Shown piece by piece: positions 2,770-19,497 of a stretch of DNA of 64,000 nucleotides. Numbering within the stretch: the first letter of the stretch is position 1; every line of letters begins with the position of its first letter. Source of the DNA: Sedimentibacter sp. MB35-C1 (lineage in GTDB: Bacteria; Bacillota; Clostridia; Tissierellales; Sedimentibacteraceae); contig NZ_CP133188.1 of the NCBI RefSeq assembly GCF_030913635.1, forward strand, positions 1,302,001-1,366,000, read 5' to 3'. The position numbers and the translations under genes were made by a program. A model generated the notes under the pieces. That model saw nothing but the letters and a program-made list of their open reading frames with translations. It made no database searches and had not been told where the DNA came from.

Positions 2770-2777
2770 GTAAAAGC

Positions 2778-4918: not shown

Positions 4919-5320
4919 ATGAGTTCATTAAATGCATTTTTAAATCCTGTGAAGGTAGAAAATCAAGAGGTTGTTATTTCAAACAGATTTATTGAAGACG
5001 GAAAGCCGGTTCCATTCATTATCCGACCCATATCTCAGGAAGAAAATAAGCAGCTTATTAAAAAAGTTACAAAAAGAGATAAAAAGGGTATGGAAACATT
5101 TGACAGGACGGAATATGTTTCAGCATTAACTGCAAGTGCCGTTGTTTTTCCGGATCTTAAGAGCTCGGAGTTGCAGGGGGCATATGGTGTATTAGGCGAA
5201 TCAGCATTGCTTCAAAAGATGCTGCTTGTCGGGGAATATGCGGAGCTGTCGCAGGCAGTACAAAGACTAAGCAGTCTAGATACGGACATAAACGAGGATA
5301 CAGAAGAAGCAAAAAACTAA
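4919..5320 (+). CDS. xkdN: Tail assembly chaperone, short (G-type) form (XkdN-like)
   Basis: This 133-residue protein lies in the position of XkdN, between tube and tape measure. Such proteins coat the tape measure during assembly and do not remain in the particle. The sequence starts SSLNAFLNPVKVENQEVVIS and contains FIIRPISQEENKQLIKKV, typical of the family. The frame ends in TAA at 5318, directly after a slippery heptamer. A second, longer product is made by shifting one base back (see next entry). AAGGAAGAG before the ATG gives the ribosome site. Confidence 0.87.
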   Translation: MSSLNAFLNPVKVENQEVVISNRFIEDGKPVPFIIRPISQEENKQLIKKVTKRDKKGMETFDRTEYVSALTASAVVFPDLKSSELQGAYGVLGESALLQKMLLVGEYAELSQAVQRLSSLDTDINEDTEEAKN

Positions 5321-5517
5321 TAAAGCAGGGTGATGCGGAATTAAATCTCGCGCATTTTGCCCTGCATAAGCTTCATATTCTTCCATCGGTTCTTAATGAA
5401 ATGTCTCAAAGAGAAAAGGCCTTCATCTATGCGAGCATACAAGTACGAACCGAAGCGGAGAAAAAGGAAACAGCCAAACTGAAACAGAAAGGAGGCAGAA
5501 AGAGATGGCAACATTAG
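4919..5517 (+). CDS. Tail assembly chaperone, frameshifted (GT-type) form
   Basis: The heptamer A AAA AAC lies at 5311-5317, in the correct phase (GCA AAA AAC) and just before the zero-frame stop. A -1 slip continues into 66 further codons ending at TAG 5515-5517, giving about 199 residues. Seven bases downstream of the heptamer a two-part stem can form: GCAGGG 5325-5330 with CCCTGC 5360-5365, and ATGCG 5333-5337 with CGCAT 5351-5355. Slippery site, spacer and stem together form the classical -1 signal of tail chaperones. The extension (QREKAFIYASIQVR...) lacks its own start and would otherwise be unexplained. It overlaps the tape-measure start by 13 bases. Confidence 0.85.
5311..5365 (+). 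promoter_or_regulatory. Programmed -1 ribosomal frameshift signal
   Basis: A slippery AAAAAAC, a 7-nt spacer and a bipartite stem of 6 + 5 bp are visible directly. This controls the ratio of short to long chaperone, a well-known device in long-tailed phages. Confidence 0.85.
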
Positions 5518-7202
5518 AAGCGATGCTTATGTCATTTGAAGGCTACTCTTCAAATATTGATAATGTGATTAAAAAGACATATCAAGCATCGTCAATGATA
5601 GTAAAAGTAAGCGGACAAACAGATAACTTAGGGAAAAAGCTTGAAAAAACAGGAACAAGTGCAGGAAAAGCAGGCCTGGGAATAAGTAAGCTCTTTAAAT
5701 CATTGATTAGTATCGAAAATATAAAAAAAGGTATGGATATTGCAGATGAATATACCAATACCTCAACTAAGCTTTCATTAATAAATGATGGACTTCAAAC
5801 TCAGGAAGATTTGCAGAACAAGGTATTTGCAGCAGCAGGACGATCAAGGGGATCTTATGCTGACATGGCCAATTCTATATACGACATGAGTAATATGGCG
5901 GGAAATTCATTTGAATCAAATGATGAATTAATAGCATTTGCCGAATTGGCGCAAAAATCGTTCAAGATGGGAGCTGCCGGTGCGTCTGAGCAATCTGATG
6001 CAATGCAAAAGCTCGCTCAGGTTATGTCAGAAGGCAGCCTTAGCGGAGATGACTTCCTTTATATTACCCAAAATGCTCCAATGATGGCGGACGCAATTGC
6101 AGAATTTACCGGTAAATCAAAAAGTGAGCTTCAAAAAATGGCAGCCGAAGGTGAGATAACATCGGACATTATCAAGAATGCAATGTTTATGTCATCAGAT
6201 GGTATAAATGATAAATTTGAAACCATGCCCATGACTTTTGCTGACTTGGCAGATAAGATAAAAAATCATTTATTAGAAAATTTTGGGTTCATAATTCAGG
6301 CGGTTGCACAGATTGCGCAGTTTATAGGAGATAACTTTGATAATATAGTGCCTGTTTTTTATGGTGTTGCAGCGGGTATGCTTGCATTTGCTCTTGCTAC
6401 TACTATTGCAGATATTGCTAACAAAGGATTGACCGTTACTTTGTCTTCTAATCCTATTATGTGGGTAGCACTGGGTATAGGTATTGTTGTTGCAGCAATA
6501 TACAAATGGGTTCAAGCTGTAGGAGGTTTGGAAATAGCTTGGATGATGGTTAAAAACGTAATTTTTACTGTGCTGGATCAGATAGGATTGGGTATTTTTT
6601 CAGCCGGTGTGGCAATAAGTAATTTTTTTGGTGATATAGGAGTCAAAGTATTGACTAATGTAGAAACAATGGCTAATGGCTGGATTGATGTAATTAATGG
6701 CTTTATTAATACTATAAATAAAATATTTGGAAAGTCATTCGATACTTTAGAATATTTTACATTTGGAACAACTGCAATGGAAGGGCATGAAGCTAACAAA
6801 GCTGCACTGTTAGATGAATTAAAAAACGCAGAGTATGATGCTAAAATAAGAGCCAGCACCAGACAAATAGAAATTGACATTGCAAAACAAAAATCAGAAG
6901 AGAAGGCCGCAGGAACACAACCGGGATACGATTACAGCGCTTCTTCAGACGTTGTAAATGCGGACTCAATTTCAAACAACGGAATGAATGTAGATAGTAT
7001 CGAGGATGAAGATTTGCAGTATATGAGAGATATAGCCGAGAGAGACTATATTAATCAATTCAGTACTGCAACACTGGCTCCAAGCATACAGGTGTCATTT
7101 GGAGATGTACATGAAGAAGCAGACGCGAATAAAGTAGCAGGAAGTATAAAGAGAATATTACAGGAAGAAATAGTAATGGCGGCAGAGGGGGTGTATAGCT
7201 AA
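5505..7202 (+). CDS. Tape measure protein
   Basis: This 565-residue protein sets tail length and spans the tube lumen. It has an alanine- and helix-rich N-terminal half with the conserved tape-measure segment around SEGSLSGDDFLYITQNAPMM. A long hydrophobic region lies at about residues 280-345, followed by a charged helical C terminus. By the usual rule of about 0.15 nm per residue it would give a tail near 85 nm, which is short. An AGGAGG site precedes the ATG. The gene overlaps the frameshifted chaperone end and its stop overlaps the next start (TAATG). Confidence 0.92.
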   Translation: MATLEAMLMSFEGYSSNIDNVIKKTYQASSMIVKVSGQTDNLGKKLEKTGTSAGKAGLGISKLFKSLISIENIKKGMDIADEYTNTSTKLSLINDGLQTQEDLQNKVFAAAGRSRGSYADMANSIYDMSNMAGNSFESNDELIAFAELAQKSFKMGAAGASEQSDAMQKLAQVMSEGSLSGDDFLYITQNAPMMADAIAEFTGKSKSELQKMAAEGEITSDIIKNAMFMSSDGINDKFETMPMTFADLADKIKNHLLENFGFIIQAVAQIAQFIGDNFDNIVPVFYGVAAGMLAFALATTIADIANKGLTVTLSSNPIMWVALGIGIVVAAIYKWVQAVGGLEIAWMMVKNVIFTVLDQIGLGIFSAGVAISNFFGDIGVKVLTNVETMANGWIDVINGFINTINKIFGKSFDTLEYFTFGTTAMEGHEANKAALLDELKNAEYDAKIRASTRQIEIDIAKQKSEEKAAGTQPGYDYSASSDVVNADSISNNGMNVDSIEDEDLQYMRDIAERDYINQFSTATLAPSIQVSFGDVHEEADANKVAGSIKRILQEEIVMAAEGVYS

Positions 7203-7843
7203 TGAGCTACTCAGTATCTTTTAAATATAACAATGAAACACATATATTGCCTGTTAATCCGGAGCAGATAGAAATGTCAATTGTGCAGGCCAATGAAAAA
7301 TATAATATATTGAAGCTGGGGCAAATAGTTGTGCCAACGCATATGGAGCTTACAAAGTATAGCTTTGATGCAGAATTTCCGTATAACCTGCGCCATTATG
7401 TCGAGAACGCGGGAGATTTTAAAACATCAGATTATTATTTAAAGCTTTTTTCTGATTGGAGAAAAGAACTTAAGCCTGTGTTGTTTAAAGCAAGCAATGA
7501 ATTGGGAGAAGCCATAGATTCCTTTGTATTGATTGAAGAGCTGACAATAACGGAAAAAGCGGGAGAAGAGGGGGACAAGTATGTTTCCTTTAAACTATCC
7601 GAATATAAGGAATTTAATTATAAGCCGATTCAATCCGAAGCAGGAATTATTTTTGGAAAGTCATCAGAAGCAGAAAAGAATCCTAAAGGAACAGGTCTTT
7701 ATGTAGTCGTAAGCGGAGACAGTCTCTGGGCTATCGCAAAAAAATATTACGGTGACGGCTCAAAATATAATAGGATTGCAGAAGCAAACAATATAAAAAA
7801 TCCAAGCTTGATTTATCCGGGGCAAAAGCTGGTGATACCATGA
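7202..7843 (+). CDS. xkdP: LysM-domain baseplate/tail protein (XkdP-like)
   Basis: This 213-residue protein follows the tape measure in the PBSX order. The N-terminal two thirds (YSVSFKYNNETHILPVNPEQ...) match the XkdP/YqbP fold found at the hub. The C-terminal 48 residues are a clear LysM repeat, VVVSGDSLWAIAKKYYGDGS to NPSLIYPGQKLVIP, which binds peptidoglycan. It would help anchor the tail tip to the cell wall during penetration. Start and stop overlap the neighbours by a few bases, showing translational coupling. Confidence 0.9.
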   Translation: MSYSVSFKYNNETHILPVNPEQIEMSIVQANEKYNILKLGQIVVPTHMELTKYSFDAEFPYNLRHYVENAGDFKTSDYYLKLFSDWRKELKPVLFKASNELGEAIDSFVLIEELTITEKAGEEGDKYVSFKLSEYKEFNYKPIQSEAGIIFGKSSEAEKNPKGTGLYVVVSGDSLWAIAKKYYGDGSKYNRIAEANNIKNPSLIYPGQKLVIP

Positions 7844-8781
7844 TGGAATTATTAACAGAAATAGACGGACAAAAGTATGATATCAGTGAACTAGTAAGAG
7901 AAGTAACATATACCGACAAACTGAATGACGGTTGCAGTAAGCTTGAATTCTCCTATATTGATGATGAGCTGAAAATACAAAACGGAAGTATCGTAACATT
8001 TAAATATAACGATACAGGCATATTTTACGGTTATGTCTTCAAACACGGCAGAAACAGCAAAGGAGAAATATCTGTTACTGCATATGACCAGCTCCGATAT
8101 TGTAAGGCTAAAGATTCAATAATAATTAAAAATAACACTATAGCGGATTTAGTTAAGAAGATGTGTTTGTATTTTGAATTGAAAACAGGTAATTTGTCTG
8201 ATACAAGTTATATTCTTGCCACAAGTGCTCAGGATGATAAAACATGGCTGGATATAATCTATGACGGTATAAAAGATACATTGGCCAATAAAGGAGAATG
8301 GTATTCGCTGAGGGATGAATTCGGCAAAATTTCTTTGCGTAAAATCACGGAACTTAAACTTAATCTTGTATTGGGAGATGAAAGTCTATGTTATGACTAC
8401 AGCTTCGAAAAGTCCATAGAAGATAGCTTTTATAATCAAATAAAGCTTGTAAGTGATAATGAATCATCAGGAAAGAGAGATTTATATATTGCAAAGGATG
8501 AAAATTCAATTGATAAGTTCGGAATGTTGCAGTATTTTGAAGTCCTTGACAAGAATTTAAACCCATCCCAGGCAAGATCGAAGGCAGACATGTTTCTTCA
8601 ATTATACAACAAGGAAGTCGAATCATTAAGCCTAGAATGCTTGGGCGATACAAGAGTCAGAGCAGGAAGTAGTTTTTATGGCAGAATTGAAGATATAGAG
8701 CTTGACAAAAGCATGATAGTTCAATCTGTTACCCATAAATTTCTTCCTGTTCATACAATGTCGTTAGAGGTGTTTATATGA
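7840..8781 (+). CDS. xkdQ: Baseplate hub protein (XkdQ, gpD-like)
   Basis: This 313-residue protein corresponds to XkdQ, the structural hub related to phage T4 gp27/P2 gpD. The N-terminal half has repeated short beta strands (DISELVREVTYTDKLNDGCS; GSIVTFKYNDTGIFYGYVF). The C-terminal part contains LSLECLGDTRVRAGSSFYGR, the conserved strand that ends hub domains. Its start overlaps the previous stop (ATGATG at 7840), with a second possible ATG at 7843. It connects the tube to the spike and the wedge proteins encoded next. Confidence 0.88.
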   Translation: MMELLTEIDGQKYDISELVREVTYTDKLNDGCSKLEFSYIDDELKIQNGSIVTFKYNDTGIFYGYVFKHGRNSKGEISVTAYDQLRYCKAKDSIIIKNNTIADLVKKMCLYFELKTGNLSDTSYILATSAQDDKTWLDIIYDGIKDTLANKGEWYSLRDEFGKISLRKITELKLNLVLGDESLCYDYSFEKSIEDSFYNQIKLVSDNESSGKRDLYIAKDENSIDKFGMLQYFEVLDKNLNPSQARSKADMFLQLYNKEVESLSLECLGDTRVRAGSSFYGRIEDIELDKSMIVQSVTHKFLPVHTMSLEVFI

Positions 8782-9011
8782 TTAATGAAATAAAAACAAT
8801 TGTTCAAAATTATCTTAGCAATGCAAAGCTATGCAGCCTGATGGTCGGAACAGTGTCATCCGGCGGAATTAAAATAAGTGATAAGCTTATTATTCCGAAT
8901 GAGTTAGTAGTGGGGAACCTAAAAGGCTCCTTAACTGCCGGCCGCAAGGTAAGATTGCTGAGAAATCACGGCGGCCAGCAGTTCTATATTCTGGAGGTGA
9001 TAGAAGAGTGA
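8778..9011 (+). CDS. xkdR: DUF2577-type baseplate protein (XkdR)
   Basis: This 77-residue protein is in the XkdR position and has the family pattern: a helical start, then an SH3/OB-like barrel ending DKLIIPNELVVGNLKGSLTAG and KVRLLRNHGGQQFYILEVI. It is shorter than usual members (about 100 residues). It probably forms part of the central spike or hub. It overlaps both neighbours by four bases. Confidence 0.82.
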   Translation: MINEIKTIVQNYLSNAKLCSLMVGTVSSGGIKISDKLIIPNELVVGNLKGSLTAGRKVRLLRNHGGQQFYILEVIEE

Positions 9012-9403
9012 TACCAAGAGGAAAAATCGATGCAGATGCAAAAGTTACAGAGGAAGTCAAAACAACCCGGACATATAAAATGTCACAGGCAAGTATTCAA
9101 GGATTTACGGACGGATTGAAAGCTCTCGAGCAGGCTATATATAAGGTGCTTAATACGGAAAAGTATGAGTATCCCATATATAGCTTTTATTATGGGATTG
9201 AGCTGGAAAGTCTCATTGGCAAGGATAAAAATTATGTAAAAACTGAGTTGAAGAGGCGAATTCGAGAATGCCTGCTCCGGGATGAAAGAATTACAGAAGT
9301 TGATAATTTTCAATTTACGGAAGACGAAGATATATTGAATTGCACCTTTGATGTACATAGCACTTACGGCAATTTGACCGTATCAAGGGAGGTGAATATT
9401 TAA
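9008..9403 (+). CDS. xkdS: DUF2634 baseplate wedge protein (XkdS, gp25-like)
   Basis: This 131-residue protein starts at GTG, overlapping the previous stop, with AGGTGATAG as ribosome site. It has a segment equivalent to the gp25/lysozyme-like wedge fold: YKVLNTEKYEYPIYSFYYGI, then LKRRIRECLLRDERI and the last strands LNCTFDVHSTYGNLTVSREV. The 3' end is repeated at 13390-13432 in front of the second baseplate-J gene, which shows that this junction took part in a duplication. Confidence 0.88.
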   Translation: MIPRGKIDADAKVTEEVKTTRTYKMSQASIQGFTDGLKALEQAIYKVLNTEKYEYPIYSFYYGIELESLIGKDKNYVKTELKRRIRECLLRDERITEVDNFQFTEDEDILNCTFDVHSTYGNLTVSREVNI

Positions 9404-10443
9404 TGTTTGAGGATATGACATATGAATATATTCTGGCTGATATGCTCTGCAGGGTTACAAGCGATGTAGATAAGAGGGAAGGTTCCGTTATTTATGATGC
9501 TGTTGCTCCTTGTGCGTATCAATTGGCACAAGCTTATTTCAATTTAAATAATTATATTGATTTGTTTTATGTAGATACCTCTATGGACGAATATCTGGAC
9601 AGGAAAGCTGCCGACTACGGAATTACTAGAAAGGCTGCCTCCTATGCTGTAAGACGGGTTGAAGCTACAGGGGCAATAGACGTGGGAACAAGATGGGGGA
9701 TAGGAGAAACTACGTATAAAATCATAGAAGTACTAGGTAATGATATATATAGTGCTGTATGTGAGCAGCCGGGAGAAATAGGAAATGCGTACAATGGAGT
9801 GATGGAAAATATTGATAACATAAACGGAGTTACAGCTGTTCTGACAGATATAATTGCAGCAGGAAATAATGAGGAGAGCGATGACAGCTTAAGAAACAGA
9901 ATTAAACAATATCTGACTATTCCTTATCAGAATGGAAATACAGCTCAATACCTTAAGTGGGCTACAGATTTTGAAGGTATCGGCACTGCGAAGGTATTTC
10001 CCCTCTGGGCAGGCGGAAACACTTTGAAAATTGCGATAACAAATGGCCAATATCTCCCGGCAGAGACTTCATTAACAGAAAAATTCCAGAAATACATGGA
10101 CCCTGGCTGCACAGGTTTAGGAAATGGAGCTGCTCCGGTTGGGTGCAAGGTGGTTGTTACCGGGGGAACTCAGTTAAATATATCAGTATCAGGCTCAATT
10201 GTATTAGCAGAAGGATATTCAGAAGCAGAGGGGGCGGCAGGCGCAATAGCAGATTACCTGGCTTCAATTACATATGCCAAATCAAGTGTAAGCTATATGA
10301 AGATAGGAAGTTTTTTATTAGATTGTCCCAGTATAGCAGATTTAAGTAATTTAACAATAAACGAAGGCATAACTGATATCCCTATGGCAGGTGATGAAAT
10401 CCCTGTTTTAAACAGCCTCAACCTGGTGGTGGCAGAAGTATGA
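9403..10443 (+). CDS. xkdT: Baseplate J-like protein, copy 1 (XkdT)
   Basis: This 346-residue protein is the wedge protein that builds the baseplate ring. It contains the typical start MFEDMTYEYILADMLCRVTS, the DKREGSVIYDAVAPCAYQLA motif and the central RNRIKQYLTIPYQNGNTAQY segment of the Baseplate_J family. It shares its first 100 residues and overall order with the protein at 13433, while the C-terminal halves diverge. Ribosome site GGGAGGTGA. The overlap with the next gene (ATGA) marks coupling. Confidence 0.9.
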   Translation: MFEDMTYEYILADMLCRVTSDVDKREGSVIYDAVAPCAYQLAQAYFNLNNYIDLFYVDTSMDEYLDRKAADYGITRKAASYAVRRVEATGAIDVGTRWGIGETTYKIIEVLGNDIYSAVCEQPGEIGNAYNGVMENIDNINGVTAVLTDIIAAGNNEESDDSLRNRIKQYLTIPYQNGNTAQYLKWATDFEGIGTAKVFPLWAGGNTLKIAITNGQYLPAETSLTEKFQKYMDPGCTGLGNGAAPVGCKVVVTGGTQLNISVSGSIVLAEGYSEAEGAAGAIADYLASITYAKSSVSYMKIGSFLLDCPSIADLSNLTINEGITDIPMAGDEIPVLNSLNLVVAEV

Positions 10444-11231
10444 TCGATTATATTAAATATACCATAGACGGAGTTACATACAGCCTCACTAATAACGGCG
10501 ACAATACCTGGAGCAGAGAAGAAACAGCTCCAAGCGTAGCAGGCAATTATCTTTTGACATTGATTATAAGTGAAAACGGAATTGTCACTGTAATCAATAG
10601 TTCAAATGACCTGTATGAAACTTATTTGAATGTAATAATGGAAGCAGAAAGAGTAGCCTGTCTTGAAAAATATGTTCCGGATTTTATGGCTGGAACAAAG
10701 CAGTTCAGAACCATATTTGATATTGAAAATGAAAGTCTTGACGACTTATATTTTCAAATTAAAAAGATAAAATCTGATGCATTCATTACAACTGCATCTA
10801 ATGATGCAATTGTCAGGCTTGAAGATTTTATGAGTATTAAAGGACTGGGCACACTTGAGCAAAGGAAAAGCTATTTAATTTCCATGCTCCAGAAAGGAAA
10901 CAAGCTTAGTGAAAACAGCATAAAAAATACAACTAATGCAATAACAGGAAGTAACTGTATAGTTACTTTCTTTGGATCTGACGAATCAAGCAACCCTGTC
11001 CCAGGCTACGGACTGCTAAGGGTCCAGGTTCTGAGTCCGGACAATAGTAAGGATTACCGTTATGAAGATATTTTCAGGGCTTTAAAGCCTTTAGTTCCCG
11101 GACATATTAAACTGTTGGTTATAAAGTACTTTTCTCTTTGGGCAGATGTAAAGAACAATTTTGCTGACTGGAATGCCGTAGCTTCCATGAACGACTGGGA
11201 ATCGGTCAAAAGCTATATCCCTCCGCAATAA
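10440..11231 (+). CDS. xkdU: Tail protein I-like (XkdU/DUF2313) with added N-terminal domain
   Basis: This 263-residue protein connects the baseplate to the fibre. The part from about residue 65 on (LYETYLNVIMEAERVACLEK...) follows the P2 gpI/XkdU pattern and ends with the LKPLVPGHIKLLVI strand. The first 65 residues (YIKYTIDGVTYSLTNNGDNT) look like a small Ig-like or carbohydrate-binding module not found in the second copy at 14453. The tail is Trp-rich (FADWNAVASMNDWESV), probably the fibre attachment site. Confidence 0.8.
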   Translation: MIDYIKYTIDGVTYSLTNNGDNTWSREETAPSVAGNYLLTLIISENGIVTVINSSNDLYETYLNVIMEAERVACLEKYVPDFMAGTKQFRTIFDIENESLDDLYFQIKKIKSDAFITTASNDAIVRLEDFMSIKGLGTLEQRKSYLISMLQKGNKLSENSIKNTTNAITGSNCIVTFFGSDESSNPVPGYGLLRVQVLSPDNSKDYRYEDIFRALKPLVPGHIKLLVIKYFSLWADVKNNFADWNAVASMNDWESVKSYIPPQ

Positions 11232-11242
11232 GGGAGGCAATA

Positions 11243-11323
11243 ATGATAATAAGAATAGAAAAATCAAAAACAAGGATAGTTGATACGGTAGTATCTATGA
11301 TTAGCGATAACCATAATACATAA
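11243..11323 (+). CDS. Possible 26-residue protein
   Basis: A short frame starts 7 bases after a GGGAGG site at 11232 and reads MIIRIEKSKTRIVDTVVSMI up to TAA at 11321. The spacing is normal and it lies inside the operon, but nothing else supports it. It could be a remnant of a longer gene. Confidence 0.35.
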   Translation: MIIRIEKSKTRIVDTVVSMISDNHNT

Positions 11324-11392
11324 AACATGGTTAATGTAGGATAAAACTACGTTATTACCGTTGATATATTAGATTAAGGAGTGTGATAGAAA

Positions 11393-12364
11393 ATGAAACA
11401 AACAACAAATTATAATCTTGTAAAACCGGAGCTAACCGATAGCCCACCCGACATAACAGTCATGAACCCAAACTGGGATAAGATTGATGAAAGATTGAAA
11501 GAAATTGAGGAAGAAAATGATAATTTGGATGCCTACAAAGCAGATTTAGTAGATGGGAAAGTGCCTAAAGAACAGCTTCCGGAGATGAATTATTTATCAT
11601 CCACTGGTGATGGTAAGGATGTTACAGTCACATTTACCGAATCTGGTTCAAGAATAAATATTAATACAACGGAAAAGCTATCTGTTTTATTTGGCAAAAT
11701 AAAAAAATATTTCACAGATTTAAAAACAGTAGCGTTTACAGGTAGTTATACAGATTTAAGCAATAAACCTACTTCATTGCCAGCTGACGGTGGTACATCT
11801 GCGGCATGCAGTGGCAATTCGGCAACAGCAACAAAGTTGCAAATAGCAAGGCAAATAAACGGAGTCGCATTTGACGGAACTGCAAATATAACCATAGCAG
11901 ACGATACTAAAGCACCAAAATCTCATGCAAGCACTGGAACAACTTATGGTGTTGGAACTACGTCTAATTACGGTCATGTAAAGACGATAAACAGTTTAAC
12001 CCAATCAAGTCATGCAAATGGTACTGCATTAAGTGCTTATCAAGGTAAAGTGTTGAAAGACCTTGTTGATGCAAAACCTGATGTTGTAACTGGAGTATAC
12101 GCAGGTGATGGCACATCTTCAAGAAATATAACTTTAGGCTTTCAACCAAAAGCAGTGTTTTTATCGAGGTTTGGTTCTGTTATGGGTGAAAATAGAGCAG
12201 GCAATTTACTAGGGGGGTTGGCACTTAGTAGCTACCCTACCACACTTCAAGATAGGGATGCACTTACTATAACAAGTACAGGCTATACTGTAGTTAATAA
12301 TATTAATTACGATATTTTGCTAAATTCGTCAGGTAATACTTATTATTACACGGCTATTAAATAA
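11393..12364 (+). CDS. Tail fibre / receptor-binding protein, copy 1
   Basis: This 323-residue protein has the conserved clostridial fibre start: NYNLVKPELTDSPPDITVMN at residues 5-24, then a short coiled coil (DERLKEIEEENDNLDAYK) for trimer formation. The middle contains TGSYTDLSNKPTSLP, a motif common in collar repeats of phage fibres, and a Ser/Thr/Gly-rich shaft. The last 100 residues form the likely receptor-binding tip. The start region is related to the second fibre only in general shape. Ribosome site AAGGAGTGTGA. Confidence 0.82.
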   Translation: MKQTTNYNLVKPELTDSPPDITVMNPNWDKIDERLKEIEEENDNLDAYKADLVDGKVPKEQLPEMNYLSSTGDGKDVTVTFTESGSRININTTEKLSVLFGKIKKYFTDLKTVAFTGSYTDLSNKPTSLPADGGTSAACSGNSATATKLQIARQINGVAFDGTANITIADDTKAPKSHASTGTTYGVGTTSNYGHVKTINSLTQSSHANGTALSAYQGKVLKDLVDAKPDVVTGVYAGDGTSSRNITLGFQPKAVFLSRFGSVMGENRAGNLLGGLALSSYPTTLQDRDALTITSTGYTVVNNINYDILLNSSGNTYYYTAIK

Positions 12365-12382
12365 CGTAGGAGGTTGTTAAAG

Positions 12383-12955
12383 TTGATTATTTATAAAAAG
12401 ACTAAGGGTTTTGAACAGCGTTCAGATAAACCAAATGAAAATTGGGCAGATGAAGATTGTTTTGTTGTTGAAGACAATTCAGAATTGGCAGGTAAAATTA
12501 TACAAGCATACCCATATTATGAATTTATAACAGATAGTAAAGGAAATTTAATCGACGTTGAAGTTTTAGACAATCCTAATATACTAACAAATTCAAAGGA
12601 GGTTAAGATAGCACAGTCAAAACAACAGCTTGCTGAATTTTTGCAACAAAATCCATTGCAGTTCACAGATGGAAAGCTTTATTCAGTTACGGAAGAAAAA
12701 CAAACATTATTGGCAAATGCTATTCAAGTGTATCAAATGAAAGTTCAAGCAGGGCTTCTTGCCACGTTAAAGTGGAATGCAACAGGTGAAGAATGTACCG
12801 AATGGACGCTTGAAGAACTGTCCACATTGGCACTGGCAATTGCAGAATATGTTGAACCTTTGGTTGCCCACCAACAATCATTGGAAGTTCAAATTAGAAA
12901 TGCCACTACTTTGGAAGAACTGGAAGGAATTGAAATCAATTATGAAATGGTTTAA
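12383..12955 (+). CDS. Fibre-associated DUF4376-like protein
   Basis: I start this gene at TTG 12383 because the TAGGAGG site (12367-12373) leaves no spacing for the TTG at 12374. The 190-residue product has a C-terminal helical domain (EKQTLLANAIQVYQMKVQAG ... LEVQIRNATTLEELEGIEIN) of the type found in fibre accessory and assembly proteins with a DUF4376 domain. It lies directly after the fibre and probably helps fold or attach it. The next gene starts inside its last 14 bases. Confidence 0.6.
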   Translation: MIIYKKTKGFEQRSDKPNENWADEDCFVVEDNSELAGKIIQAYPYYEFITDSKGNLIDVEVLDNPNILTNSKEVKIAQSKQQLAEFLQQNPLQFTDGKLYSVTEEKQTLLANAIQVYQMKVQAGLLATLKWNATGEECTEWTLEELSTLALAIAEYVEPLVAHQQSLEVQIRNATTLEELEGIEINYEMV

Positions 12956-13355
12956 GGGTTTAATTCTGTTCTTGATTGGTGGGGGTGCTTATTACACAAT
13001 TGAAATTCTATGGCGAGGGCATTCCCACTTGACTATGTTTGTACTTGGTGGTGTGTGTTTTATTCTGATTGGTTTAATTAATGAAAAATTTTCATGGAAA
13101 ACAAAACTATGGAAACAACAGCTAATTGCAACAAGTATTGTAACAACTTTGGAATTTGCTTCAGGGGTGATTTTAAACTTATTATTAGGCTTAAACATTT
13201 GGAATTATAGCAACTTACCATTTAACTTATTTGGACAAGTTTGCTTACAATATACAATCTTATGGTTTTTTCTGTCATTTGGGGCAATTGTCTTGGATGA
13301 TTATATCAGACACTGGTTTTTGGGGGAAGAAAAACCACGTTATAAACTAATATAG
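12942..13355 (+). CDS. PF06541-like four-helix membrane protein, copy 1
   Basis: This 137-residue protein has about four membrane segments and ends in the motif LDDYIRHWFLGEEKPRYKLI. It resembles the putative ABC-transporter type IV (PF06541/CmpB) family. The true start is ATG 12942, overlapping the fibre-associated gene; the frame is open further upstream but in the region coding for that gene. A second copy lies at 16946 and is clearly related along its length. Its job in a tail locus is unknown. A role in lysis or membrane targeting is possible. Confidence 0.68.
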   Translation: MKWFKGLILFLIGGGAYYTIEILWRGHSHLTMFVLGGVCFILIGLINEKFSWKTKLWKQQLIATSIVTTLEFASGVILNLLLGLNIWNYSNLPFNLFGQVCLQYTILWFFLSFGAIVLDDYIRHWFLGEEKPRYKLI

Positions 13356-13432
13356 GCAACAAAAGAAAAATTTGGCGTCTTGAAAGAATTCCTTTACGGC
13401 AATTTAACTGTAACAAGGGAGGTGAATATTTA
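13356..13432 (+). repeat. Duplication junction with xkdS 3' remnant
   Basis: Right after the membrane protein stop lies AGGCAACAAAAGAAAAATTT, which recurs after the small gene ending at 16836. It is followed at 13390-13432 by a copy of the last 14 codons of xkdS (TTTACGGCAATTTAACTG then GGGAGGTGAATATTTAA). This remnant has no coding role and marks a tandem duplication or module insertion. Confidence 0.85.
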
Positions 13433-14452
13433 ATGTTTGAGAATATGACATATGAATATATTTTGGGCGATATGCTCGGAAAAGTTACAAGTGACGTGGA
13501 TAAGCGTGAGGGGTCTGTTATATATGATGCCCTTGCTCCTTGTGCATACCAGATTGCACAAACTTATTTTTATCTTAATAATTTTATTGATTTGGTAAGC
13601 GGAGATACTGCTGTAGGGAAATATTTGGACAGGGTGGTTGCGGATTATGGTATCAGCAGGAAATCTGCAAGCTATGCTGTAAGGCAGGTGGAAACGACAG
13701 GAGAAGTCACTGTCGGAACAAGATGGGGATTGGAAGATACAACCTATGTTATTACAGAATCAGTTTCAACAAATATTTATAAGGCTAGGTGTGAACAGTT
13801 GGGAACGGTAGGTAATCAATATACCGGCACGCTTGAAAATATTGATAATGTGGCGGGAATTACAGCTTCATTAACAGGAATAATTGCTTCAGGATCAGAT
13901 GAGGAAACAGATGAGAATCTGCGTGAAAGATTCTATGCTCAGATACAATCGCCGAGTACATCCGGCAATGCTTATAATTATAAAATGTGGGCTCTGGAAG
14001 TACCGGGCGTGGGGGATGCCAAAATATTTCCCCTATGGAACGGGCCGGGAACGGTTAAGGTGCTTGTTATAGACGGCGATATGTGCATAGATACTTCATT
14101 GCCGTCAAAGGTGAAGTCACACATTGAATCTGTCAGACCGATTGGGGCATCAGTTACAGTTTCAAACCCTTCGGTTCTGACCATTGATGTTGCCGCGAAT
14201 GTTGTGCTGGACAGAACTAAGACAATGAATGATGTGCAGTCAGCGTTTGACAGTTCATTAGCTGAGTATCTAAAGGATACGGCATTTAAAATCTACAATA
14301 TTAGCTATGCTAAAATAGGAAGCATTCTGCTTTCGACAGAGGGAGTTCGTGATTATGATTCGCTGCTTGTGAATTCCGGTGTTACAAATATAGAATTAGA
14401 CGATGAAGAAGTACCTGTTGCCGGAGCTGTTACACTGACGGAGGTGATGTAA
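13433..14452 (+). CDS. xkdT: Baseplate J-like protein, copy 2
   Basis: This 339-residue protein has the same start (MFENMTYEYILGDMLGKVTS), DKREGSVIYDALAPCAYQIA motif and domain order as the copy at 9403, with many synonymous and amino-acid differences. The C-terminal half is more divergent, as expected if it contacts a different gpI/fibre set. It has the identical ribosome site GGGAGGTGAATATTTA because that sequence was duplicated with it. Both copies are full length, so both may be used, or one may be held in reserve. Confidence 0.9.
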   Translation: MFENMTYEYILGDMLGKVTSDVDKREGSVIYDALAPCAYQIAQTYFYLNNFIDLVSGDTAVGKYLDRVVADYGISRKSASYAVRQVETTGEVTVGTRWGLEDTTYVITESVSTNIYKARCEQLGTVGNQYTGTLENIDNVAGITASLTGIIASGSDEETDENLRERFYAQIQSPSTSGNAYNYKMWALEVPGVGDAKIFPLWNGPGTVKVLVIDGDMCIDTSLPSKVKSHIESVRPIGASVTVSNPSVLTIDVAANVVLDRTKTMNDVQSAFDSSLAEYLKDTAFKIYNISYAKIGSILLSTEGVRDYDSLLVNSGVTNIELDDEEVPVAGAVTLTEVM

Positions 14453-15004
14453 TTGAATCTTATGACATTATTGCCTGACTATTATAAAGGCAATGTGACT
14501 ATGGAAGAGCTGCAGAACATTTTGGGCAAGAATATAAATGATCTTGAAGACAGCCTAAATGAAACAATTAACCAGTGCTTTGTCAATACTGCATCCGCTT
14601 TACTGTCAAGATATGAAAAAATATATGGCATACAGGTGGATGTGAATAAGTCTGATGATTTCCGAAGAGAGCGCATAAGAGCAAAAATACAGGGAACCGG
14701 AACAGTAACTAAGCAAATGATAGCCAGTGCGGCAGCTGCATACAGCAACGGCGAGGTCGAAGTAATTGAAAACCCTAAAAGCTACAGCTTTATAATCAAA
14801 TTTACAGGTGCAAAGGGAATCCCGGCAAACATATCAGATCTGGCAATTACTATTGAGGAAATCAAGCCGGCGCATTTGACGTTTTCATTTGAATATACAT
14901 GGATAACATGGAATGAGTTTGATAATTACAACAAAACGTTTGATGAGTGGGATGAGTTGGATTTATCATGGGACGAATTTGAAACATACAGGGAGGTGGC
15001 ATAA
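14453..15004 (+). CDS. Tail protein I-like (YmfQ/DUF2313), copy 2
   Basis: This 183-residue protein starts at TTG 14453, directly after the J stop, with GGAGGTGA six bases upstream. The pattern LLPDYYKGNVTMEELQNIL, then YGIQVDVNKSDDFRRERIRA and IKPAHLTFSFEYTW, is typical of DUF2313 proteins. Unlike its counterpart at 10440 it lacks the Ig-like N-terminal part. The end is acidic and Trp-rich (WNEFDNYNKTFDEWDELDLS), a likely fibre contact. Confidence 0.87.
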   Translation: MNLMTLLPDYYKGNVTMEELQNILGKNINDLEDSLNETINQCFVNTASALLSRYEKIYGIQVDVNKSDDFRRERIRAKIQGTGTVTKQMIASAAAAYSNGEVEVIENPKSYSFIIKFTGAKGIPANISDLAITIEEIKPAHLTFSFEYTWITWNEFDNYNKTFDEWDELDLSWDEFETYREVA

Positions 15005-16290
15005 TGCCAAGTGAAATAAAAACAGAAAACTTGGGGCTCAATAAATGGGAAGGAAACGAGTATCCAAAAAGAACAGACTTTGTTAGTGACAATGAAATAA
15101 TAGACGAAGCAATAGGAAAATTAGAAAGTCTTAAAACAGAGAATAAGTCAAATTTAGTTGCAGCAGTTAATGAGGTTAGGGAACAAAATGATAATTTGAC
15201 AGCCTATGCAGTGGCAAGCGGAACAAATACCTATACAGCAACAATTGTAGGAATAACAGCATTAACAGAAGGTTTCAGTATTAAAATTAAGTTTACAAAA
15301 GCAAATACAGGAGCAAGTACTCTTAATATTAATAGCATTGGAGCAAAATCAATTTTAAAAGGAAATGGCAATGCTCTATCAAGTGGAAATATTAAAGCAG
15401 GTCAAATATGCAACCTTGTATATAATGGCTTAAATTTTCAATTATTGGGTGAAGGGGGTGAGTATGGAACAGCAACAGTCTCAGAAGTGTTGTCAGGAAA
15501 AACAATTGGGACAGATGATGGATTGGTCAATGGCACAATGCCCAATCGTGGAGCTGTAAATCAAAACCTTACAGCAGAGGCTCAAGAATATACAATTCCG
15601 CAGGGGTATCATAACGGTTTAGGTAAAATTAAAGCTGTTATAACAGGACTTGTAGCAAGTGTAATAAAAGCAGGAGTTACGGTTGGCGGTATACTTGGTA
15701 CATTTACAAATGATGCTACAGCAACAGCGGCTCAAATACTGAAAGATAAAATTGCTTATGTTAAAGGAAATAAAGTAGTAGGTACAATACTAAGTAAAGG
15801 AGCACAAACATATACACCTGGAACAACAAATCAGGTTATAAATGCAGGGCAATATTTATCAGGTGCTCAGACAATTCAAGGTAGTGCAAATTTTATAGAA
15901 AGCAATATAAAAGATGGGGTTAATATGTGGGGAAAGGTAGGAACTTTAAAACAAGTTAAAACATATTCACCATCAGATATAACAGTAGAAACACCTCATT
16001 ATAGTGATGAAATAGGAGCTACATCATTTATAGAAACTCCTGCAACTGTATTACTAAGCTTAATGAAAAAGGATACAAGATATATAAATTATTTAACTTT
16101 TGATGGAAATGGGAGTATTTTTTTAAAAGAGCTATCTTCTAATGGTAAAGTTATTGAAGTTATATTACCATATGTTTTTACGGTATCAAGTACATCAACT
16201 ATTTTTTTAATATTCAACCCTTATGGAAATACATTTACCATTCGTGATTCAAATGGAAACATTCTAAATGTTCAATTGTTTATAAATTAG
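15004..16290 (+). CDS. Tail fibre / receptor-binding protein, copy 2
   Basis: This 428-residue protein starts in the TAATG overlap. It shows the fibre N terminus (EIKTENLGLNKWEGNEYPKR), a coiled coil around NLVAAVNEVREQNDNLTAYA, a glycine/threonine-rich shaft with repeated DGLVNGTMPNRG-like turns, and a C-terminal tip rich in aromatic residues. It is not a simple copy of the fibre at 11393, so the two modules probably recognise different surface targets. Confidence 0.83.
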   Translation: MPSEIKTENLGLNKWEGNEYPKRTDFVSDNEIIDEAIGKLESLKTENKSNLVAAVNEVREQNDNLTAYAVASGTNTYTATIVGITALTEGFSIKIKFTKANTGASTLNINSIGAKSILKGNGNALSSGNIKAGQICNLVYNGLNFQLLGEGGEYGTATVSEVLSGKTIGTDDGLVNGTMPNRGAVNQNLTAEAQEYTIPQGYHNGLGKIKAVITGLVASVIKAGVTVGGILGTFTNDATATAAQILKDKIAYVKGNKVVGTILSKGAQTYTPGTTNQVINAGQYLSGAQTIQGSANFIESNIKDGVNMWGKVGTLKQVKTYSPSDITVETPHYSDEIGATSFIETPATVLLSLMKKDTRYINYLTFDGNGSIFLKELSSNGKVIEVILPYVFTVSSTSTIFLIFNPYGNTFTIRDSNGNILNVQLFIN

Positions 16291-16330
16291 AAAAAAAAAA
16301 TAATATTGATTAAGATAGGAGAAAATTAGG

Positions 16331-16690
16331 ATGCAAAAAGCAATAAATATTGAATGTAGTAATAAGAATGTAGTAAGAATTCTATCAATAGCGGAACCAG
16401 AAATAATCGAAAACAATCCTACAGGATTAGAATATTTTATCATAGAGGATTATGTCGAACCATTTGTATTAGACAATCCGCTAGCGATTAATTACCCAAT
16501 GTATGATAAAGTTAATAAAACTTTCAAGTGGGCGCAAATCCAATATCAAAACACAGCAACAGAAGAATTATTAGAAATAGAGAATTTAAAAATAGAAAAT
16601 ACGAATTTAAAAAATGAATTACAAGTAGCAAATGGAAACATAGATATGTTAACAGAAACATTAGCGGACATGATTGGAGGAGCTATCTAA
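16331..16690 (+). CDS. Fibre accessory protein with coiled coil
   Basis: This 119-residue protein begins MQKAINIECSNKNVVRILSI. It ends in a leucine-zipper-like helix (LLEIENLKIENTNLKNELQV, residues about 80-105) with leucine or isoleucine at heptad positions. It lies after the second fibre, as the DUF4376-like gene does after the first, so it is probably a fibre assembly or attachment protein. AGATAGGAGA provides the ribosome site. The family is not recognised. Confidence 0.6.
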   Translation: MQKAINIECSNKNVVRILSIAEPEIIENNPTGLEYFIIEDYVEPFVLDNPLAINYPMYDKVNKTFKWAQIQYQNTATEELLEIENLKIENTNLKNELQVANGNIDMLTETLADMIGGAI

Positions 16691-16836
16691 TGACTGATAT
16701 TCAAAAGAAAATATTAATAGCAGGAATTAAGATAAAACTAGCACGAGGTGAAGAGCTTGAAGATATTTTGATATCTTATGTTAAATTAAACGAAACAGAA
16801 AAGCAAGAAATAAGAGGGGCTTTAATAACGGCATAG
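16690..16836 (+). CDS. Small phage protein, 48 residues
   Basis: The start codon overlaps the previous stop (TAATG), with GATTGGAGG upstream. The product is a helical, charged protein that begins MTDIQKKILIAGIKIKLARG and has a loop ELEDILISYVKLNETEKQEI. Small proteins of this kind follow fibre genes in clostridial phages. The tight coupling supports it as a real gene. After its stop comes the 20-bp repeat AGGCAACAAAAGAAAAATTT. Confidence 0.65.
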   Translation: MTDIQKKILIAGIKIKLARGEELEDILISYVKLNETEKQEIRGALITA

Positions 16837-16945
16837 GCAACAAAAGAAAAATTTAGCTTCCTAATTAATTCAAATTAAAACCGTATTACTCAAGAAGATT
16901 TGGAAAGTCTAATAACAGACTACAATGAAGCTTGAGGTAATGCAC
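16837..16945 (+). pseudogene. Remnant of an XkdX-like small gene
   Basis: The frame ending TGA near 16936 reads NRITQEDLESLITDYNEA after a stop at about 16880. Endings of the type ITQED... are typical of XkdX-like proteins that normally follow fibres. No start remains. Confidence 0.3.
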
Positions 16946-17362
16946 ATGAGAAAAATATTTAAGTATGCGGTACTGCTTATATACGGCGGTGTGATATATT
17001 ATTTTATAGAGCTAATTTACAGAGGGTACAGCCATTATGCTATGATTTTGGTAGGTGGGCTGTGCTTTATATGTATAGGGCTTTTGAATGAACTTTATAC
17101 GTATAAAATTCCGCTTATAAAGCAAATGTTTATATCTTCTTTTATTGTTACGGTAATAGAGTTTATTGCGGGAGTGGTATTAAATATGTGGCTGAAGCTG
17201 GATATTTGGGATTATAGTACTTTAAGGTTCAATATATTAGGGCAGATAAGTCTGCAAACAAGCGTTGTATGGTTTTTCCTTGCTCTGCCTGCAATATACT
17301 TGGATGACTATCTGAGATATTGGATGTTCGGGGAAGCAAAACCGCAGTATAAGTTAATATAG
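16946..17362 (+). CDS. PF06541-like four-helix membrane protein, copy 2
   Basis: The 138-residue product is related along its full length to the protein at 12942: YSHYAMILVGGLCFICIGLL aligns with HSHLTMFVLGGVCFILIGLI, and both end in LDDY(I/L)R.W.(F/L)GE.KP.YKLI. I choose ATG 16946 because TTGAGGTA lies eight bases upstream; ATG codons at 16925 and 16940 fit less well. Presence of this gene at the end of both fibre modules argues that it belongs to the module and has a tail-related job. Confidence 0.7.
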   Translation: MRKIFKYAVLLIYGGVIYYFIELIYRGYSHYAMILVGGLCFICIGLLNELYTYKIPLIKQMFISSFIVTVIEFIAGVVLNMWLKLDIWDYSTLRFNILGQISLQTSVVWFFLALPAIYLDDYLRYWMFGEAKPQYKLI

Positions 17363-17389
17363 GGAACAAAAATAATCTACTATTTATTA

Positions 17390-17417
17390 AAAGGGTCTCA
17401 GCAGAGGTCCTTTTTTT
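17390..17417 (+). terminator. Terminator between fibre module and lysis genes
   Basis: AAAGGGTCTC and GAGGTCCTTT pair (two wobbles) around a 4-nt loop and are followed by T residues. The lysis genes may therefore have their own promoter in 17418-17600, where only a -10-like TATAAT (17554-17559) without a good -35 is seen. Confidence 0.75.
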
Positions 17418-17601
17418 AATTAAGTAGAAAAACATACAAATTACTCAGTACTTATATCAAAATAGAGAAAATTAAATTATGCCAAGTTAAATGAATAAGT
17501 TGCCGGAGTTCGGGTAATTGCGGCAGCTATAGAGCATGTACAAGATAATGGCATATAATATGATAAGAGATGAAATGCTCTTTTAAGGGGTGAAATAAAT
17601 A

Positions 17602-18096
17602 ATGGAAAATTTAAACAGATATACAATGGAAATTATATCAGGATATAACATTTTGATAGGCGTAGTGGTGACCATAATGACAGCAGTGTTTGGAGAATTT
17701 TGGTATTTATTTGCTGCGTTTTTGGTTTTTAATATAATAGATTGGTTAAGTGGCTGGAGCAAAGCAAGAAAGCTAAAGATTGAAAACAGTGAAAAAGGAC
17801 TAAGCGGTATAGCAAAAAAAATATGGTGTTGGGTGCTCATCCTGGTGGCATTTATGATATCAAATATATTTATAGTTTTAGGAAATGAACTTTTAAATAT
17901 TGAACTTGATTTTTTAACATGGTTTGGATGGTTTACTTTAGCCAGCCTGACCGTAAATGAGGTAAGAAGTATTCTTGAAAATTTAGTTGAAATAGGTATT
18001 AATGTTCCATTTTTTTTGATTAAAGGTCTGGCTGTTACAGAGAAATTGATCAACAGCAAGATTAATATACCGAATGATGGTGACAGTGATGATTAA
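17602..18096 (+). CDS. Holin (phage_holin_4 / toxin-secretion holin family)
   Basis: This 164-residue protein has three to four membrane segments: IISGYNILIGVVVTIMTAVF, WYLFAAFLVFNIIDWLSGW, IWCWVLILVAFMISNIFIVL and a C-terminal one. It carries the family motif FNIIDWLSGWSKA followed by a conserved lysine-rich loop (EKGLSGIAKK). Such holins open the membrane for the endolysin. The ribosome site is AGGGGTGA. The amidase start lies inside its last codons, the normal holin-endolysin pairing. Confidence 0.92.
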   Translation: MENLNRYTMEIISGYNILIGVVVTIMTAVFGEFWYLFAAFLVFNIIDWLSGWSKARKLKIENSEKGLSGIAKKIWCWVLILVAFMISNIFIVLGNELLNIELDFLTWFGWFTLASLTVNEVRSILENLVEIGINVPFFLIKGLAVTEKLINSKINIPNDGDSDD

Positions 18097-18793
18097 GATA
18101 CTCATAGACCCCGGCCATGCGCCGGGGAATACCAATAAAGGACCTACTGGTTATTACGAATATCAGGGAGTATGGACAATATCTTCTTATCTGAAGGAGA
18201 TGCTCGAAAATAAAGGAATTCAGACCGAGTTTACCCGTACATGGGACCAGAATCCTGATCCCTATGAAAGAGGTCAGAAAGCGGCAGGTTATGATTTATT
18301 TATATCGGAGCATACCAATGCCAGTGGTGACGGCAGGGCACGTGGAGTAGAAGTGTTTTATGATTATTCAAAGCCTCAAGATGTTGAATTTGCACAACAA
18401 TTAGCTGACAATGTTTCTTCGGTAATGGGAAATTCAAGCAGGGGTGCAAAGACGAGAGTATACACCGAAAGCGGTAAAATATACAACTATTACGGAGTTA
18501 TACGAGGTGCAGGAGCTACAGACTGCAAACATATATTTCTTATTGAGAGCGGTTTTCACGATAATGCCGATGATGAAGCATTTCTAAAAGTTGATGAAAA
18601 CCTGAGGAAAATAGCGCAGGCACAGGCAGAGATGATTTTGAAATTTTTGTGGGTGAATGATATGACGGTGCAGGAAGCAGAAAAGGTAGTGAAGGAAAGA
18701 GCAGGACTTGATGATAATACTATGCAGTATCTTAAATATTACAGGTATGGAGAAGCTCTGCTGATAAAGCTTGCAGAAGATATGGAGCATTAA
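18089..18793 (+). CDS. N-acetylmuramoyl-L-alanine amidase (endolysin)
   Basis: I start at ATG 18089, where MIKILIDPGHAPG begins; the frame is open 15 bases further up but has no better ribosome site. This 234-residue protein is an Amidase_3 enzyme that cuts the amide bond between MurNAc and the peptide. Likely zinc ligands are visible in DPGH near the N terminus, SEHTNA around residue 75, and the catalytic Glu in IESGFH. The last 45 residues form a helical tail that may target the enzyme. It overlaps the holin by eight bases and is the last gene of the tail locus. Confidence 0.93.
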   Translation: MIKILIDPGHAPGNTNKGPTGYYEYQGVWTISSYLKEMLENKGIQTEFTRTWDQNPDPYERGQKAAGYDLFISEHTNASGDGRARGVEVFYDYSKPQDVEFAQQLADNVSSVMGNSSRGAKTRVYTESGKIYNYYGVIRGAGATDCKHIFLIESGFHDNADDEAFLKVDENLRKIAQAQAEMILKFLWVNDMTVQEAEKVVKERAGLDDNTMQYLKYYRYGEALLIKLAEDMEH

Positions 18794-18817
18794 TATTATA
18801 TATAATTACTTTATTTT

Positions 18818-18841
18818 GTCCGGGTATTTCCCGGACTTTTT
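18818..18841 (+). terminator. Terminator ending the tail locus
   Basis: GTCCGGG/CCCGGAC stem with a 5-nt loop and five T residues. Confidence 0.92.
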
Positions 18842-18846
18842 ATCTT

Positions 18847-18874: not shown

Positions 18875-18905
18875 TGTAGAACCAACAAAGTGAGGGGGAA
18901 ATATA

Positions 18906-19484: not shown

Positions 19485-19497
19485 AGCATGTACAAGT

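Follow-up and report, generated by a model that had tools for sequence, protein, structure and literature searches.

A putative tailocin locus of Sedimentibacter sp. MB35-C1 with two tip cassettes on one tail body

The closest described relative of the locus considered here is diffocin, an R-type tailocin from Clostridioides difficile. Clostridial contractile-tail weapons also include the R-type tailocins of solvent-producing clostridia, some strains of which are reported to have two or three tailocin genomes (PMC10538166). According to the report on diffocin (PMC11329794), its baseplate wedge has one J protein and one gpI protein; in the wedge triplex the N-terminal parts come together as a core bundle, which attaches to the sheath initiator, the C-terminal domains of J contact the neighbouring triplexes, this half forming the dimerization ring, and the fibre is joined to the C-terminal region of the gpI protein. 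Here we describe a diffocin-like element in 64,000 nucleotides of Sedimentibacter sp. MB35-C1 (the window, positions 1,302,001 to 1,366,000 of contig NZ_CP133188.1; coordinates follow the window numbering), which has two J and two gpI genes. The contractile tail is alike in both, with J, the second gpI (gpI2) and the sheath related to CD1371, CD1372 and CD1363, and the diffocin gene numbering gives the same order as here (sheath initiator, J, gpI). The diffocin hub is reported to carry two hydrolases, whereas no hydrolase domain was matched in the 313-amino-acid hub here (7840-8781).

A sequence-only reading of this DNA had proposed that genes for J, gpI, a fibre, a fibre accessory protein and a PF06541 membrane protein are doubled in tandem at 9403-17362. 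Open reading frames and family matches confirm this doubling, and the ten cassette genes are all open and all on the plus strand. The operon has one sheath, one tube and one tape measure despite its two cassettes, and two dissimilar fibre genes therefore come with a single tail body. Two alternative tips are well supported. On the sequence evidence, we think it probable that the locus is a tailocin that carries two complete tip cassettes on one tail body, with two specificities and like-with-like sorting, and we infer that both sets are expressed, that they sort into like-with-like rings, that they have different targets and that the particles kill. As regards the alternative receptor specificities suggested earlier, two constrained sets with different tips are indeed present, and these would provide such specificities.

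The two J proteins are homologous, as had been proposed. Both match PF04865 and they share 47% identity over 344 aligned columns, though this declines along the protein (identical residues per block of 50 columns, from the N-terminus: 42, 32, 27, 21, 13 and 11, with 17 in the last 49), from 67% in the N-terminal half to about 33% in the C-terminal half. The membrane proteins are likewise homologous (51% identity over 142 amino acids, both PF06541; by sequence, the first of them, mem1, probably starts at 12942 and not at 12777). The fibres are unlike, the best BLAST-level match between them being 14 residues (E 0.008), and the accessory proteins are unrelated at the BLAST level (best match 9 residues). 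Two details of the earlier reading have to be corrected. The gpI proteins belong to one family, each with matches to PF10076 and phrog_521; they share about 20% identity, and gpI1 has about 73 additional N-terminal residues. The PF06541 gene is not an obligate cassette part either, because the sister locus, on a contig of a Sedimentibacter metagenome-assembled genome (L003, the same as L042/L043; L denotes loci and G genomes that were compared, G000 being the window's own genome), has the tandem and yet only a single PF06541 gene was found there. A PF06541/phrog_20274 membrane gene also follows gpI in L094.

The element spans 652-18793 of the window, in a genome that is a single contig of 3.6 Mb. 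It runs from its own regulators (652-2103) through the trunk tail genes (tail terminator, sheath, tube, chaperone, tape measure, LysM protein, hub, spike-like protein and sheath initiator; 2778 to 9403) and the two cassettes to its own lysis genes for a holin and an amidase (17602-18793), so that a contractile sheath, tube, baseplate and tape measure are all encoded. A gene inventory by family profiles found no capsid, portal or terminase gene within 652-18793. The single terminase-profile match in the whole genome is weak (1.3e-4) and 0.9 Mb off; the nearest portal is about 17 kb upstream of the element, inside a separate siphovirus-type prophage with other genes intervening; a second portal match is partial and more than 1 Mb away. 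Because the element has no head gene and these genome-wide matches are distant, we read the locus as tailocin-type and not as a phage, and the phage particle in which the sequence-only reading had set the two modules does not fit a headless locus. Judged by its genes, it is a headless, diffocin-like contractile-tail (R-type tailocin) operon. The best PDB match of J2 is the diffocin protein TRI-2, which J1 also matches; gpI2 matches TRI-1 and the sheath matches a diffocin protein as well (E values in the table). The gpI1 profile found no relative in PDB, diffocin included.

Alternatively, the locus might be what is left of a complete phage after loss of the head, and no longer work as a weapon. 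Its tail genes are phage-like and a siphovirus-type prophage lies upstream. However, the tail and lysis genes are open, the 13 of them compared with the sister locus are conserved (ratio of nonsynonymous to synonymous divergence, dN/dS, of 0 to 0.52), and the relatives L042, L083, L014 and L019 have the same order of regulator, tail terminator and sheath with no head genes recognised between, and we regard a dead remnant as very improbable. In G018, a genome of the same genus, a prophage related to the upstream one (L041 1-4907, genome 1290001-1294907, with the portal at 1284891) flanks the element on that side too, at 78% identity over 2.4 kb.

The cassettes represent two old lineages, type A (J1 with a 263-amino-acid gpI) and type B (J2 with a 183-amino-acid gpI). 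In a tree of J C-terminal halves, made from the 56 of 80 aligned J proteins that are more than 36% identical to J1 or J2, J1 and J2 fall into two clades of 20 and 15 rows, both at 100/99. With near-identical rows counted once, 16 type A and 14 type B rows are left, and the J C-half is accompanied by a gpI of its own type in all 16 type A sets and in all 13 type B sets counted. The fourteenth type B set, L010, was left out of this count with its gpI in two frames (9072-9320 and 9336-9623 of a metagenome contig), which is either a break or a sequencing error.

A comparison with relatives that carry one module had been suggested by the sequence-only reading, and each module is in fact the sole set seen in some relatives. 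Type A stands alone in L101, L105, L106, L109, L110, L111 and L113 (no second J in the 4.2-7.3 kb past gpI) and type B in L004, L011, L012, L082, L083 and L084 (6.0-9.9 kb past gpI), and a lysis gene was recognised in L105, L113, L012, L082, L083 and L084. Not counted as single sets were L112, where the contig ends at gpI, L015, with 233 bases past gpI, and L102, with 2.7 kb and a near-twin, L113, that was counted. Where the two types stand together, type A precedes type B in the window, L042/L043 and L010 and follows it in L018 and L103; the fragment L104 starts within a gpI, after which comes a type A set. Neither cassette would seem to need the other, because each type is the sole set in relatives and the order is not fixed. 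Fixed mechanical roles, for example a first, reversible receptor and a second one, or an inner and an outer ring, would agree with the stability of the pair within lineages, but relatives with a similar trunk manage with either type and the order varies, which makes this the least probable of the explanations considered.

The J protein itself is a two-part adaptor and, on the evolutionary scale, a recombination joint between trunk and tip, which gives the earlier idea of J as an exchange site a firmer footing on that time scale. Pairwise distances of J residues 1-140 follow those of the sheath initiator, gp25 (r=0.901, n=62 J), and distances of the part beyond residue 140 follow those of gpI (r=0.886, n=68). 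The cross terms are 0.35 for the N-half with gpI and 0.38 for the C-half with gp25, and the partial correlations are 0.88 and 0.88. In a permutation test, 0 of 2000 permutations reached any of the four correlations, cross terms included, and so all are above chance. In 40-residue segments (n=59), the gp25 correlation falls from 0.79 (residues 121-160) to 0.33 (151-190) and the gpI correlation rises from 0.34 to 0.74, which places the switch point near residue 150-160. Left out of this main set were the duplicates L003, L113, L019, L032 and L030, the fragment L108 and any J shorter than 320 amino acids. The values shift by no more than 0.05 when near-duplicates are removed (57 left) and then also the loci fetched via gpI1 (L100-L113; 46 left).

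A second, independent set was made up of 60 loci, mostly top scorers of the phylum list; it provided 44 J proteins with both neighbours recognised, 16 being dropped. The correlations there are 0.81 for the N-half with gp25 and 0.77 for the C-half with gpI, with cross terms of 0.45 and 0.59 and partial correlations of 0.69 and 0.70, and a smaller step occurs at the same place (gp25 from 0.66 to 0.49, gpI from 0.42 to 0.65). One locus of that set, L163, has a second J-like match that is gpI-like by eye, and it has no row among the 44. Individual loci display the same division. For example, in the type A sets of L105, L106, L110, L111 and L112 the identity to J1 is 53-63% in the C-half and just 32-39% in the N-half. 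The step agrees with the diffocin structural map, and because that structure assigns the roles and both J1 and J2 best match the diffocin J, the joint would divide a trunk-docking half from a ring-and-tip half.

In the mechanism that we favour, each cassette would encode a wedge triplex (two J and one gpI) and its own fibre. The N-half of J1 or J2 would dock onto the single common sheath initiator, and the J C-half, gpI and fibre would be the cassette-specific part. Because the genes form one operon and the two J genes have the same ribosome-binding site, an induced cell is predicted to make both wedge sets. The triplexes would most likely close rings with their own kind, since about two thirds of positions differ between the C-halves of J1 and J2, the part that joins neighbouring triplexes into a ring. 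The cell would then release two particle populations with different receptor specificities from one trunk pool, whereas free mixing of J1 and J2 would leave tips with fewer fibres of either kind. Within a locus, the C-half identity of A and B is 31-35% in four of five pairs, and the cross-locus mean is 36.5 (157 pairs). Self-sorting is favoured because the within-locus identity, L103 excepted, is not raised over the cross-locus values and because mixing would cost fibres.

Mixed baseplates, the other possibility raised by the sequence-only reading, would have both triplex kinds in one ring, so that each tailocin bears both fibres and binds either receptor. The J N-halves are 67% identical, one sheath initiator serves both, and the sets would be made together, all of which suits mixing, as does the high A-B C-half identity of L103 (41.9%, reached by 2% of the 157 cross-locus pairs). 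The low C-half identity in the other four pairs, with no sign of mutual adaptation, points the other way; an identity of about 33% in the half that would form the dimerization ring argues against free mixing. Moreover, a second fibre gene on a common gpI would suffice for such a particle, yet the whole triplex is repeated. We therefore consider mixed baseplates unlikely, though they are the rival that we take most seriously. As a more tentative extension of self-sorting, to which we give somewhat less than even weight, the J N-half could be a trunk plug and the C-half a self-recognition code for ring closure, with two codes giving two tailocins from one trunk pool. If true, this would be a natural minimal way to run two tailocins at once without subunit interference, and this joint would also account for the movement of tip cassettes, across Bacillota, between contractile tails that are only distantly related.

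The second cassette arrived as a unit together with the 3' end of a sheath-initiator gene, as shown by a remnant of such a gene that precedes J2 and has eroded since. A direct DNA repeat (9364-9663 and 13394-13693, 78% identical) begins upstream of J, since the last 12 sheath-initiator codons recur ahead of J2. The remnant measures 12 codons in the window and 18 in L042; in L010 it extends to 100 codons and contains stop codons. The L010 copy is 59% identical to its own element's gene and 58% to the window's, figures too close to decide between a duplication and a capture from a close relative. The remnant holds the ribosome-binding site of J2, the 20 nucleotides around the start being identical for J1 and J2, and the same site precedes both J genes in L042. 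A terminator scan of the region found no terminator-like site between mem1 and J2.

Several other accounts of the tandem were rejected. A recent tandem duplication of one module is contradicted by the separate C-half clades of J1 and J2, which also contain single-set elements. Gene conversion of the J N-halves within the window does not apply either; their identity (67.3%) equals the cross-locus A-B mean (66.6, standard deviation 3.2), and each N-half is nearest its own lineage in the sister loci. Inversion between the copies, which the sequence-only reading had wanted to look for, is not expected because the J repeats are direct, leaving deletion or duplication only. The membrane gene copies are also direct repeats, inverted pairs are short (18-28 nucleotides, 71-86% complementary), and no invertase or recombinase is among the family matches of the operon proteins, so inversion or phase variation was dropped.

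The sister locus L003 is the nearest named relative in the J2 search (93% J2 identity). Compared with it, dN/dS is 0.20 for J1, 0.11 for gpI1, 0.23 for J2 and 0.20 for gpI2, and among the trunk and lysis genes 0.12 for the sheath, 0.15 for the tape measure, 0.18 for the amidase and 0.26 for the tube; the value of 0.52 for the sheath initiator comes from a short gene with small dS. Purifying selection acts on J and gpI in each cassette. DNA identity to the sister is 96% over 456-11524, 95% over 13393-15197 and 96% over 16834-20000, and the differences lie in the fibre past its first tens of residues and in the accessory genes of each cassette; the divergent stretch of cassette 1 includes mem1, missing from the sister. 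Since the fibres of both cassettes diverge past the N-terminal end between the sisters, each cassette carries a variable fibre of its own on a conserved base. The shaft of fibre 2 resembles the fibre of the sister's other cassette, and either parts move between cassettes or they have a common source.

These observations bear on the idea that one cassette is a spare, that is, a captured set that is weakly used or silent and serves as a store for recombination. The scar ahead of J2 agrees with capture, and deletion could proceed through the exact 22-nucleotide repeat that brackets cassette 2 (13352 and 16833, 3481 nucleotides apart) or through a 28-nucleotide identity at the J starts (4030 nucleotides apart). 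However, the dN/dS of J and gpI in both sets is within the range of the trunk genes, the start signals of J1 and J2 are identical, and L042 and L010 retain both sets, as do, with another lineage, G045 and G046. We judge a spare cassette to be improbable.

Tandem J genes of two kinds are also present in G046 (L077), G045 (L079) and G241 (L080), and the sets kept by G045 and G046 have 63-66% J C-half identity. In the order, J (E<=1e-20) is present in 40 of 249 genomes, and two J genes within 5 kb on one strand in five of the 40 (G000, G018, G045, G046 and G241). PF04865 (E<=1e-12) is present in 77 of the 398 genomes sampled from the phylum and, among the places listed, an ordinary-J pair occurs only in G000. 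A universal double set, which the sequence-only reading had named as counter-evidence, is thus not what these genomes have (tandem J in 5 of 40 and 1 of 77). G1007 was not counted, its two adjacent longer J-like proteins being differently built (760 and 1306 amino acids, G1007:C13 365239-368014); they may belong to an extracellular contractile injection system. Among phage records, J2 has 112 places in 112 records and J1 has 73 places in 72 records, so one record has two. No match to gpI1 was found in 50,697 phage records at E<=1e-5; relatives of gpI1 are present in 16 viral-contig loci. A plasmid search gave short partial matches only.

Terminase and portal profiles were run on nine double or partly seen double loci (G000, G018, G045, G046, G241, L018, L103, L104 and L010) and 13 other records, and none of the nine has a match inside the tail operon. 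In G018 a portal lies about 11 kb upstream of the element in a neighbouring prophage, and its further matches, one terminase and one more portal, are on separate contigs; G045 has a portal on a different contig. Weak terminase-profile matches in long frames, far off or on other contigs, were seen in G000, G045, G046 and G241. The window, G018 and G241 have their tail genes directly after the regulators; in G046 two frames that are host-like by eye precede the sheath gene. Matches were found in the single-set records L012, L025 and G241:C31 (terminase) and L106, L110 and L111 (portal). These results are consistent with a link between double sets and headless loci, which is a lead and not a rate because several records are fragmentary.

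Several points weigh against our interpretation. Gram-positive tailocin loci are said to retain capsid genes (PMC10538166), and the window locus is without any. Type A sets also occur on the portal-bearing contigs L106, L110 and L111, and therefore the cassette is not tailocin-specific. The argument for sorting comes from sequence divergence, and the within-locus A-B C-half identity does not deviate in one direction throughout: most cross-locus pairs exceed it in the window, L042 and L010, but in L103 it is above 98% of them. The covariation of J is partly physical linkage, the N-half adjoining the gp25 gene and the C-half adjoining gpI; because linkage pushes in the same direction, the step is the informative part. 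The fibre pools overlap, since residues 157-337 of the window's fibre 2 match a section of fibre 1 in the sister (L003 8340-9815) at 62% identity. A terminator-like match lies inside J2 at 13540, in a region with 8 such matches and 5.3 expected. An excess of unlike-type pairs was rejected as proof of selection, not being significant (chance of same-type pairs 0.37 in the close group and 0.13 overall).

Table. Features of the element, in window coordinates.
Feature	Coordinates	Strand	Evidence
ImmA-like metalloprotease, part of the element's switch	652..1122	-	phrog_87 1e-40
Repressor-like HTH regulator	1144..1485	-	phrog_8 and phrog_4 transcription regulators, weak; equivalent position in L042, L083, L014, L019
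Putative activator	1657..2103	+	phrog_31049 3e-33 (function unknown family); role guessed from position
Tail terminator, first structural gene	2778..3185	+	PF20765 6e-24
Contractile sheath, common trunk	3203..4246	+	PF17482, PF04984; PDB CD1363 1e-26
Tail tube	4266..4742	+	PF09393 2e-39
XkdN-like tail assembly chaperone	4919..5320	+	PF08890
Tape measure	5505..7202	+	PF20155
LysM protein (tube tail)	7202..7843	+	PF01476
Hub, YqbQ-like	7840..8781	+	PF24032 4e-106
Spike-like DUF2577 protein	8778..9011	+	PF10844 0.0013, under family cut-off
Sheath initiator (gp25/XkdS), putative single docking protein for J1 and J2	9008..9403	+	PF10934 3.5e-32
J1 ribosome-binding site and start	9386..9405	+	20 nt identical to J2 counterpart
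J1 (type A), baseplate wedge protein	9403..10443	+	PF04865 6e-43; PDB 8v3w TRI-2 2e-29
gpI1 (type A), wedge-fibre connector, extra N-terminal part	10440..11231	+	PF10076 6e-11, phrog_521; 16-row family alignment
Fibre 1	11393..12364	+	phrog tail fibre matches
Fibre accessory 1	12374..12955	+	PF14301, phrog_1348
PF06541 membrane protein 1 (mem1); absent from sister's cassette 1	12942..13355	+	PF06541, phrog_20274
22-nt repeat, left copy	13352..13373	+	exact; 2 in window vs 0.01 expected
Sheath-initiator gene remnant (last 12 codons) ahead of J2	13395..13430	+	sequence repeat
J2 ribosome-binding site and start	13416..13435	+	identical to J1 counterpart
J2 (type B), baseplate wedge protein	13433..14452	+	PF04865 1.5e-62; PDB 8v3w TRI-2 CD1371 4e-48
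gpI2 (type B)	14453..15004	+	PF10076 1e-31, phrog_521; PDB 8v3w TRI-1 CD1372 9e-16
Fibre 2	15004..16290	+	phrog_28171, phrog_4900
Accessory 2	16331..16690	+	position; family searches without relevant match
Small 48-aa protein 3' of fibre genes	16690..16836	+	phrog_28526 0.006
22-nt repeat, right copy; at the edge (16834) where sister conservation restarts	16833..16854	+	exact repeat
PF06541 membrane protein 2 (mem2)	16925..17362	+	1e-11; phrog_20274
Intrinsic terminator-like hairpin after second cassette	17389..17414	+	terminator scan
Holin	17602..18096	+	TIGR01593 above cut-off, phrog_199
Amidase endolysin	18074..18793	+	phrog_435 8e-34

Two further arrangements were seen among the compared loci. 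G046 has, besides its double-cassette locus, two contractile-tail gene sets in tandem about 15 kb apart (C1:1130000-1164999; L086 and L087). Genes for proteins of up to 645 amino acids lie between J and gpI in L005 (11007-12770), L026 (11019-12699), L080 (804-2741) and L081 (806-2170), and these may be additional tip parts.

Several known systems, in addition to diffocin, can be compared with the locus described here. The tailocins of Pseudomonas chlororaphis and Kosakonia also have more than one fibre per locus, which a review calls an apparent trait of Gram-negative rhizosphere bacteria (PMC12090994). Those bacteria are reported to multiply the fibre genes, whereas here J and gpI are repeated too, and in a Gram-positive lineage. 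Three P. chlororaphis fibres reportedly assemble into three distinct particles (PMC12090994), a precedent for self-sorting into two particle kinds here. Two tailocins in one locus of the P. chlororaphis type are described for strain CHA0, each with its own tape measure (PMC7815802). That double tailocin has its own trunk genes for each tailocin; here there is a single sheath, tube and tape measure.

The G segment of phage Mu is an invertible fibre segment with an invertase. Carotovoricin has two alternative tips in one locus, as here, and its fibre segment is reported to be inverted by an invertase (PMC12090994). Unlike both of these, the sets here are direct repeats, both in reading orientation, with no recombinase recognised in the operon; permanent double arming would replace inversion in the interpretation. 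In the carotovoricin loci of Pectobacterium, recombination is reported to swap fibre parts between loci while the trunk stays (PMC13195805), as here, but the present locus would have an extra joint inside J, two genes upstream of the fibre. The literature covered, by title and the start of the abstract and with most subscription papers outside it, held no description of repeated wedge sets in tailocins or of a joint in J.

The review cited above also asks why tailocin loci typically hold one fibre allele and names assembly interference as a cost of having more (PMC12090994). Here a Gram-positive lineage has the whole wedge set twice, and other lineages do likewise with different sets. The division of J into a shared and a private half makes the question of interference concrete, namely whether J1 and J2 form joint rings or close only with themselves. 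The more general result is J as the joint between trunk and tip, the point where tip cassettes pass from one contractile tail to another.

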